Shown piece by piece: positions 33,333 to 50,960 of a DNA stretch of 64,000 nucleotides; the first letter of the stretch is position 1, and each line of letters starts with the position of its first letter. This stretch comes from Pseudomonadota bacterium (GTDB lineage: Bacteria > Pseudomonadota > Alphaproteobacteria > Rhodobacterales > Rhodobacteraceae), in NCBI GenBank assembly GCA_963205235.1, contig CAUJIP010000046.1, positions 1 to 64,000 on the forward strand, given 5' to 3'. A program made the translations under genes and the position numbers. The notes beneath the pieces were generated by a model. It did no database searches. It was not told where the DNA came from and worked only from the letters and a program-made list of their open reading frames with translations.

Positions 33333-33409
33333 TGGTGGCGAGGGGGGGACTCGAACCCCCGACCCTGCGATTATGAGTCGCATGCTCTAACCAACTGAGC
33401 TACCTAGCC
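33333..33409 (-). tRNA. tRNA with CAU anticodon (elongator Met or Ile2)
   Basis: 77 nt GGCTAGGTAGCTCAGTTGGTTAGAGCATGCGACTCATAATCGCAGGGTCGGGGGTTCGAGTCCCCCCCTCGCCACCA; cloverleaf arms and encoded CCA present. Confidence 0.95.
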
Positions 33410-48751: not shown

Positions 48752-49660
48752 TCAGGGGCCCAGCACCGTTTCCGCACAACGGACGGCGCGGGCAAGGTGG
48801 CTTTGGTGGATCGGGTCATCCGGCAGCAACCGGGGCATGGTCCAGCCGACCGAGGCCAGAGTTCGGGCCATGGTGAAGGCATCCACCATCGCGACATCGG
48901 TCGTGCCATAGCCCGCCATCAAGGCATCCCGCAGGGCCGGAAATTCGGGCAGGGCCAGCACCTGCACCAGCGCGGTGCCAAGATCATAAAGCCGGAAGCC
49001 AAAGCCTGAATCGTCGAAATCGATCAAAGAAACCGAATGTTCGTTTACAAGAACGTTCTCGCGCAGGACGTCGGCGTGGATCAACCCGGTGTCGCCGCCG
49101 ATCAGACGTTCGCGCAAGGCATCGCGGGCGCGGACAAGCATCCGGCGCTGGTCGGGGCTGGCGGCGGGATGGTCCCAGAACCGGCCCCAGAACGGCGTTT
49201 CGCCGACCAGACCGTCGCGGTCCCAGCTTGGGCGGACAAAGCCTTGCGGCAGGGTCAGGCCATCGGTCACCCTATGCAGGCTGCGCAACAGCTCGCCCAG
49301 CTTGTGGTAAAGTTGGGCAACATCGGCCACCGGGCGCGCGAAGGGCAAACCAGCCTCGCCAAGGGCCTCGCCCTCCATCCAGCTGATTGCCGATGCGTGG
49401 CGGCCATCCTGCAGCGGAACCAGCAAGCGGCCATCCTGCGCCGGAATCGCAGCTGGAATTGGCAGACCCGACCGGGCGAGTTCGGCACACCACCAAAGTT
49501 CCGAGCCTATGGCATCCGCCGACTGATAGCCCGCCCGGTGCAAGCGCAAGGCCGCCCGGCCAGACGGCAGCGCCATTTCATAGACATGGTTTTCCCGGTC
49601 GCGCAGGGTGCAGGTGATCCGCCCGCCCCAAAGTGTTGCGGCTGCTTCGGCGGGGGTCAT
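48752..49660 (-). CDS. Aminoglycoside/homoserine-kinase-type phosphotransferase
   Basis: ENHVYEMALPSGRAALRLHR, GLIHADVLRENVLVNEHSVSLIDFDDSGFGFRLYDLG (Brenner-type HxDxxxxN and DFDD). Confidence 0.87.
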   Translation of the reverse strand: MTPAEAAATLWGGRITCTLRDRENHVYEMALPSGRAALRLHRAGYQSADAIGSELWWCAELARSGLPIPAAIPAQDGRLLVPLQDGRHASAISWMEGEALGEAGLPFARPVADVAQLYHKLGELLRSLHRVTDGLTLPQGFVRPSWDRDGLVGETPFWGRFWDHPAASPDQRRMLVRARDALRERLIGGDTGLIHADVLRENVLVNEHSVSLIDFDDSGFGFRLYDLGTALVQVLALPEFPALRDALMAGYGTTDVAMVDAFTMARTLASVGWTMPRLLPDDPIHQSHLARAVRCAETVLGP

Positions 49661-50079
49661 TCCTCGCCCTCGACCTTGCCGCGAAGCGCCTTGACCTCGC
49701 CCCGCTGGGTCTTGGCGGCGATACGACGGCGCTGGCTGCCCAATGTCGGCTTGGTCGCGATCCGCCGTTTGGGGGCGATCAGGGCTTGCCGGATCAGTTC
49801 GGCCAGCCGTTCACGGGCAAGTTCGCGATTCTGCGCCTGGCTGCGGGTGTCTTCGACCTGGATCACCAGCGCCCCTTCGGTGGTCCAGCGCCGACCGGCC
49901 AGCCGCTTCAGCCGCGCCTTGACTGCCGGGGTCAGATTCGGGGATCGGTCCGCCTCGAACCGCAGTTCGACAGCGGTCGAGACCTTGTTGACGTTCTGCC
50001 CCCCCGGCCCCGAGGCGCGCATGAAGCTTTCCGACAATTCCCAGTCGGCAATCGCGATGGTTTCGGTGACATGCAGCAT
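49657..50079 (-). CDS. arfB: Alternative ribosome-rescue factor ArfB (peptidyl-tRNA hydrolase, YaeJ)
   Basis: SFMRASGPGGQNVNKVSTAVELRF (GGQ), basic C-terminal tail RRRIAAKTQRGEVKALRGKVEGEE. Confidence 0.94.
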   Translation of the reverse strand: MLHVTETIAIADWELSESFMRASGPGGQNVNKVSTAVELRFEADRSPNLTPAVKARLKRLAGRRWTTEGALVIQVEDTRSQAQNRELARERLAELIRQALIAPKRRIATKPTLGSQRRRIAAKTQRGEVKALRGKVEGEE

Positions 50080-50100
50080 GTGGGCAAGCTATTCGGGGTT

Positions 50101-50140
50101 TCGCAAAAGAGAAAGGGCTGCCGATGCTGGCAACCCTTTC
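50101..50140 (-). terminator. Intrinsic terminator between the short ORF and arfB
   Basis: Minus strand GAAAGGGTTGCC-AGCATC-GGCAGCCCTTTC followed by TCTTTTGCG; 12-bp stem with one G:U. Confidence 0.85.
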
Positions 50141-50210
50141 CGAGATCCAAGGAGATGGGCCAGTTAGGGCATCCAAATCCAATCGGTGGTTTATCTTCCA
50201 GGGGCTGCCC

Positions 50211-50267
50211 TTAGAAAATACGCCCCCCGACTGTCCCGACACCTCTCTCCAATATCACTCTAGACAC
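50211..50267 (-). CDS. Putative 18-codon leader/small ORF (GTG start) with near-maximal Shine-Dalgarno
   Basis: Minus strand GAAAGGAGGTGATCCA|GTG TCT AGA GTG ATA TTG GAG AGA GGT GTC GGG ACA GTC GGG GGG CGT ATT TTC TAA (MSRVILERGVGTVGGRIF); AGGAGG 7 nt before GTG. Confidence 0.6.
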   Translation of the reverse strand: MSRVILERGVGTVGGRIF

Positions 50268-50283
50268 TGGATCACCTCCTTTC
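50268..50283 (-). promoter_or_regulatory. 16-nt perfect complement to the 16S rRNA 3' end (extended Shine-Dalgarno)
   Basis: Plus strand TGGATCACCTCCTTTC equals the conserved alphaproteobacterial 16S 3' terminus; minus strand reads GAAAGGAGGTGATCCA directly before GTG. Confidence 0.8.
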
Positions 50284-50304
50284 AAAATGGTTGCCGATAA
50301 GGGG

Positions 50305-50333
50305 GAGCGTGACACAGATTTTGTGTTTGTCAA
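50305..50333 (-). promoter_or_regulatory. Possible promoter for the short leader transcript
   Basis: Minus-strand -35 TTGACA (50333-50328) with a weak -10 candidate (ACGCTC) 17 nt downstream. Confidence 0.4.
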
Positions 50334-50339
50334 AACAAT

Positions 50340-50960
50340 TTACGCTACCCGTGCGGCAAGTTTTCGAACGGCCAGCCGGAATGGCATCAGCGCGAAGACA
50401 GCCAGAAGAAGCTTGACCATCCAGTCACCCAGCGCCAGCGAGACCCAGAACGGGGCTTCGGACCCGATACCCAGAAGCGGGGTCGGGGCAGTGGCCCACG
50501 AGACGTCATTGCCGGGCTCAAGAAAGGTCAGTGCAGCGGAAAAGGCAACGGTGAAGAAGATCGCCGTATCCAGTGTGGACGATATCACCGGCGAGATCAG
50601 CGGAGCCTTCCACCAAAGCCCGTTGCGGAACCGGTTGAAGACCGCAATGTCCAGAAGCTGGGCGCACAGGAACGCAAGGCCCGAACCCAGGGCGACACGG
50701 AGGCTGACCAGGGGGCCGAACTCGCCCATGATCTGCGTGCCGATGAAGGAACAGAGAATCCCGGTGCCAAAGCCCACGAACACAATCTTGCGGGCGGCGG
50801 CGGGGCCGTCCAGCCGGTTCGCGATCTCGGTCACCAGGAACGAGAACGGATAGGTCAGCGCGCCCCAGGTCAGGAAGGCGCCAAGCGGGTATTGGACAAG
50901 GATGTTCGAGGTGACGACAATCACCGTCATGGCGATGACGCCAGGAAGAAGGAAGCGCAT
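50340..50960 (-). CDS. Queuosine precursor transporter (VUT/YhhQ family)
   Basis: VIVVTSNILVQYPL, TYPFSFLVTEIANRLDG, multi-TM, SSTLDTAIFFTVAF; start uncertain (ATG 50960 or 51017). Confidence 0.87.
   Translation of the reverse strand: MRFLLPGVIAMTVIVVTSNILVQYPLGAFLTWGALTYPFSFLVTEIANRLDGPAAARKIVFVGFGTGILCSFIGTQIMGEFGPLVSLRVALGSGLAFLCAQLLDIAVFNRFRNGLWWKAPLISPVISSTLDTAIFFTVAFSAALTFLEPGNDVSWATAPTPLLGIGSEAPFWVSLALGDWMVKLLLAVFALMPFRLAVRKLAARVA

Follow-up and report, generated by a model that had tools for sequence, protein, structure and literature searches.

In E. coli, where arfA is regulated by trans-translation, expression of this rescue factor depends on translation status. Among small bacterial RNAs, rnTrpL/peTrpL of Sinorhizobium meliloti is an attenuator-derived dual-function sRNA (PMC10117765), and Staphylococcus aureus uses an extended pairing between the Shine-Dalgarno (SD) sequence and the anti-SD for initiation on small ORFs (PMC13009471). 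In Caulobacter, 75.4% of genes lack an SD (PMC4117421). The Caulobacter sRNA CC2171, annotated as non-coding, gives its name to the Rfam family RF01867, in which MH_s33 of Mesorhizobium huakuii is also listed (PMC5596092); a search of the open-licence literature returned no functional study of CC2171.

We analysed an element located between yhhQ and arfB in a 64,000-nucleotide stretch of Rhodobacteraceae DNA (contig CAUJIP010000046.1, the window). Like rnTrpL, it would be a short RNA, of alphaproteobacterial origin, that carries a terminator and is translated over a tiny frame. However, rnTrpL is leaderless and acts as the Trp attenuator of trpE, whereas the element described here has an extreme SD, with neither an amino-acid run nor a fixed downstream operon. 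As in S. aureus, the potential pairing extends past the core toward the start codon, but only about two extra pairs are involved there, against about 16–17 potential pairs here, to which an internal competitor strand is added.

A compact unit between yhhQ and arfB

The features of the locus, all on the minus strand, are as follows.

50340..50960, minus: yhhQ-type queuosine precursor transporter, upstream neighbour, named from the preliminary description and from gene position
50306..50333, minus: putative promoter, with a TTGACA -35 (50333-50328), a 16-nt spacer and a weak candidate -10, CACGCT (50311-50306)
50268..50283, minus: extended SD GAAAGGAGGTGATCCA, complementary to the whole 16S rRNA 3' tail
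50211..50267, minus: 18-codon ORF MSRVILERGVGTVGGRIF, with a GTG start and a TAA stop
50248..50271, minus: start-codon hairpin P2, 50271-50265 with 50254-50248, codons 2-4 in the loop
50201..50210, minus: post-stop segment GGGCAGCCCC, predicted (MFE) to form a small GGG-CAGC-CCC hairpin
50151..50164, minus: internal 16S-tail mimic ACTGGCCCATCTCC, identical to GCTGGATCACCTCC at 10 of 14 positions; forms the 3' strand of P1
50157-50151 with SD 50279-50273, minus: helix P1
50142..50144, minus: 3' strand to codons 3-4 (partners 50260-50258), directly upstream of the terminator
50105..50141, minus: intrinsic terminator, stem of 12-13 bp (50141-50110), 6-nt loop, T-rich tail TTTCTCTTTT
50086..50091, minus: -10-like box TAGCTT, 12 nt ahead of the arfB ATG; may serve as a leaderless promoter of arfB
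49657..50079, minus: arfB, ATG at 50079, downstream neighbour outside the RNA unit
33333-33409, minus: tRNA-Met (CAU), the sole tRNA gene within the window

The promoter -35, the anti-SD complement, the GTG ORF, GGGCAGCCCC and the terminator reported in the preliminary description are thus all present on this strand. Together they make up a compact unit of transcription, conserved in Rhodobacterales, that combines a putative promoter of its own with an extreme SD, a translated-looking ORF and a terminator. The promoter block, TTGACA..AAATCTGTG.CA..CT (also TTGACA..TGTG.CA..CT), is kept over 144 Rhodobacterales elements; it is by conservation only that we assign it as the putative promoter of the RNA, the candidate -10 being weak. 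The anti-SD complement measures 16 nt, or 17 nt when the G of the GTG start is counted, and GAAAGGAGGTGATCCA followed by this G is the exact reverse complement of the 16S tail CTGGATCACCTCCTTTC, with a predicted duplex energy of -32.8 kcal/mol. This tail was confirmed on plasmid-borne Rhodobacteraceae rRNA operons, at 100% in Cereibacter sphaeroides, Gemmobacter aquarius and Rhodobacter sp. CZR27; in genomes it was readable in 0 of 21, presumably because it is masked. The terminator hairpin, which a generic terminator scan left unflagged because the tail TTTCTCTTTT is interrupted, is both conserved and covarying, with a median energy of about -20 kcal/mol in relatives.

Distribution and kinship with CC2171

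In the genome of 3.79 Mb, the 15-mer AAAGGAGGTGATCCA has a single occurrence, against about 0.007 expected by chance. With at most one mismatch, AAAGGAGGTGATCCAGTG was found in 285 of 397 Rhodobacteraceae genomes, nearly always in a single copy, while the reversed pattern gave no match among the same 397 genomes. The sequence elements are real, far beyond chance. A frequent SD variant in genomes of the family is GGAGGTGGTCCA, an A to G change that still allows pairing to the 16S tail, by way of a G-U pair. In a scan of named genomes, at least 120 loci were recovered from Rhodobacterales, Rhizobiales-type genera (Nitratireductor, Pelagibacterium, Stappia and Afifella among the matches listed), Alphaproteobacteria of marine origin and a small number of MAGs with other labels; in Pelagibacterium luteolum, an FMN riboswitch lies shortly downstream of the element (L093:5129-5280). 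Class-wide, a strict pattern was found in 12 of 296 genomes, which is an underestimate, as shown by the RF01867 count (39 of 197 class genomes), and sampling by pattern favours elements with canonical SDs.

When the element was submitted to cmscan, no family scored above its cut-off. At a relaxed threshold, the best match was RF01867 (25.0 bits), aligned over the full model (1-159/159) with an E-value of 0.0016 for 351 bases searched. Both the window element and the top Rhodobacteraceae element (36.2 bits) stay below the gathering score of 75 bits, and a search of the window's own genome with RF01867 gave no match at 0.001 genome-wide; by Rfam's own rule, the window element is therefore not a member of RF01867. 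Another Rfam match, to ctRNA_p42d, is terminator-like and likely due to chance. The 5' motif and the 3' terminator hairpin of RF01867 are both present in the window element, and eight class-wide elements align along the full model (E 2.8e-7 to 0.01). Two of the 39 genomes bearing RF01867 matches are Rhodobacteraceae (G056 and G211), and there the matches lie directly upstream of arfB (E 7.9e-6 and 4.7e-5 genome-wide); among 14 well-known control genomes, Caulobacter alone was matched. Two RF01867-like matches were seen in each of the class genomes G406, G425 and G531, so paralogues may exist outside Rhodobacterales. Given the full-length alignment and the matches of its relatives, we regard the window element as a homologue of RF01867, and the view that no such arfB leader was known has to be amended, since a related family stands in Rfam. 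CC2171 and the Rhodobacterales elements share an identical 5' motif, CAAC..GAAAGGAGGUGAUCCAGUGUCU, and a common arrangement, in which the SD is followed by the start, the folded body and the terminator; unlike CC2171, the latter have a frame fixed at 18 codons and, as a partner for the SD, an internal mimic of the 16S tail.

A conserved start, frame and stop

Although CC2171 is annotated as non-coding, an ORF signature is seen in the RF01867 family too. When the start codon was left as NNN in the search pattern, it read ATG, GTG or TTG in all 12 class-wide matches; the one-mismatch variants of the family that touch the start codon are, among those listed, all ATG; and RF01867 matches with a readable SD start with ATG in nine cases and with GTG in nine others. 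The ORF is 18 codons long in 136 of the 144 Rhodobacterales elements. At codon 19 the three stops interchange (TGA 56, TAG 50, TAA 30), and TGG, expected 20.2 times from independent columns, was never observed, while stops interrupt the two remaining frames in 83 and 77 of the 144 elements. Variability, in contrast, is the same over codon positions 1, 2 and 3 (entropy of 0.79, 0.80 and 0.80 bits): we found no third-position excess, the mark of purifying selection on codons, in the Rhodobacterales elements. In other orders of Alphaproteobacteria the peptide is unrelated (MSSE..., MSHCH...). Since start, frame and stop are kept while codon positions vary equally, translation appears to be selected and the peptide does not. 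From these patterns, the element is probably translated, with conservation of its start, frame, length and stop.

Rare codons (AGA, ATA, ACA) are extremely frequent in the 18-codon frame, whose CAI of 0.22 is below that of all 17-codon windows of eight window genes. We considered a sensor of rare-codon tRNAs and rejected it: across relatives, values are comparably low in the other frames (0.31 and 0.28, versus 0.25 in frame), so the rare codons reflect composition.

Fold and covariation

Compared with 200 dinucleotide shuffles, none of which folded equally well, the RNA is more stable (z = -3.8). Covariation scores, for which no phylogenetic null model was used, come from 128 non-redundant Rhodobacterales elements aligned with MAFFT. 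The top covarying pair of columns joins the first base of codon 4 to a base that closely precedes the terminator (93 GC, 31 AU and 3 GU among 128), and swapping the strands of this codons 3-4 helix between genomes weakens the pairing (z = -8.6). The pairing is only 3 bp long in the window; in other Alphaproteobacteria, the homologous closing helix is longer and covaries through wholly different sequences, such as AGUGAGAU/AUCUCAC and CAUUGUC/GACAAUG (z = -9, 55 elements). Because the codons 3-4 helix crosses P1, the two would form a pseudoknot or belong to alternative folds.

A conserved block that is an addition of Rhodobacterales, CCUAACYGGCCCAUCUCC (CCTAACYGGCCCATCTCC), is identical to the 16S tail at 10 of 14 positions. 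P1 is paired in 96.8% of the cells of the alignment, against 53–64% in slid controls; this alignment count is what supports P1, as the count of strands found by pattern (98/100) is circular. The support is one-sided (G-U compatible) and includes no true covariation because the SD is invariant. P2 is paired in 97% of cells over 128 sequences and also appears in the MFE structure. Sequestration of the SD would be lineage-specific, since predictions for other Alphaproteobacteria leave it unpaired. The earlier proposal that access of the ribosome would alter the fold is retained in spirit, but not in its form of an arfB attenuator.

Relation to arfB and alternative explanations

The preliminary description presented the element as a cis-acting, translation-sensing attenuator of arfB, in which GGCAGCCC would serve as antiterminator. 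Within Rhodobacterales, 108 of the 144 elements adjoin arfB, with 11–201 nt (31 in many cases) between terminator and ATG. In the least biased set, however, arfB is directly downstream in only 39 of 63 loci, among the matches listed; it follows the element in none of 42 cases outside Rhodobacterales, and Paracoccus-type genomes, as well as others, retain yhhQ and the element without arfB. We sought a common neighbour outside Rhodobacterales and found none, the largest cluster holding 4 of 60 elements; in the Rhizobiales-type L074, L163 and L180, the gene directly upstream is one that we take to be acsA-like (acetyl-CoA synthetase). The GCAGC-like segment after the stop also recurs in elements that are not linked to arfB, and its proposed pairing does not coevolve: native pairs of GGCAGCCC with the terminator are weaker than swapped ones (-12.74 versus -13.20 kcal/mol, z = +2.8), and 300 of 300 swaps are at least as good as the native combination. 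The anti-SD strand, tried as antiterminator against the 5' arm of the terminator, also gave a negative swap test (z = +4.6). Moreover, the terminator lies about 70 nt past the stop, beyond the footprint of a ribosome, and arfB has a candidate leaderless promoter of its own: a TAnnnT box starting at -16 to -11 (peak at -12/-13) precedes 44% of the 91 arfB genes linked to the element and 33% of the 15 unlinked ones, against 5% of shuffles. Given these boxes, arfB most likely has a transcript of its own, begun at a leaderless promoter that overlaps the region of the terminator; they also suggest that the arfB rescue factor of Rhodobacteraceae is often leaderless. An arfB transcription start overlapping the terminator, named at the outset as an outcome that would speak against the attenuator, is thus predicted by a box found with and without the element. 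As the arfB start is only 25 nt past the terminator tail, some low read-through from the RNA promoter into arfB is possible. The regulation of E. coli arfA (PMC10107115) likewise concerns a rescue factor, but our analysis gave no support for regulation of arfB by the element, and we hold the attenuator to be highly unlikely.

It is also highly unlikely that the element is a 3'-UTR or terminator of yhhQ, the upstream gene for queuosine precursor uptake, instead of an independent gene: yhhQ does lie directly upstream in 61 of the 63 loci of the least biased set, at a median of 62 nt (among the matches listed), but the element has its own conserved promoter block and other neighbours in other Alphaproteobacteria. 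The fixed length and a motif recognisable across Rhodobacterales, MSRVILERGVGTV, would suit a functional 18-residue micro-protein whose translation relies on a strong SD, with RNA structure in a secondary role; against this stand the lack of third-position excess, the unrelated peptides of other Alphaproteobacteria (MSSE..., MSHCH...) and a codon adaptation that is very low in all three frames, which points to a constraint at the nucleotide level, and we hold such a peptide function to be very unlikely. An un- or rarely translated sponge for 30S subunits, which would capture 16S tails and lower SD-led initiation, could draw on a complement that spans the whole single-stranded tail with a predicted -32.8 kcal/mol; yet start, frame and stop are conserved, none of which a pure sponge would need, and this explanation is unlikely.

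Discussion

We consider it highly probable that the element constitutes a small RNA gene of its own, placed between yhhQ and arfB and representing the branch that Rhodobacterales hold in a family of CC2171 homologues, and that it acts as a ribosome-gated short mRNA/sRNA in which the act of coding matters and the peptide does not. In such an RNA, the internal copy of the 16S tail would hold the SD, and codons 3-4 would pair just before the terminator. The real 16S tail would outcompete the internal mimic, the predicted energies being -32.8 kcal/mol for the former and -17.8 kcal/mol for the latter; on this difference, the 30S subunit is expected to open the RNA. Initiation at the GTG would follow, and the ribosome would unfold the 5' half, reaching the stop immediately ahead of the apical GGGCAGCCC hairpin. 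The output could be a stabilization of the RNA by bound ribosomes, access of other mRNAs to the exposed 3' strand, which is C-rich and resembles an anti-SD, or the drawing off or buffering of 30S subunits. A more specific version, rather doubtful in our view, would make the element a riboswitch-like sensor with the ribosome as ligand: free 30S subunits would displace the mimic, and the RNA would report or buffer them and shift initiation toward leaderless mRNAs such as that of arfB.

A little-studied Rfam sRNA family thus extends far beyond its curated membership, and this RF01867-related family bears a signature of translation, with start, frame and stop, without selection on the peptide. Many genes of the class lack an SD, and this is the setting in which the proposed ribosome-interacting RNA would operate. 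In Rhodobacterales, an SD that complements the whole 16S tail, together with a mimic of that tail, offers a testable case of an RNA whose job may be its interaction with the ribosome.
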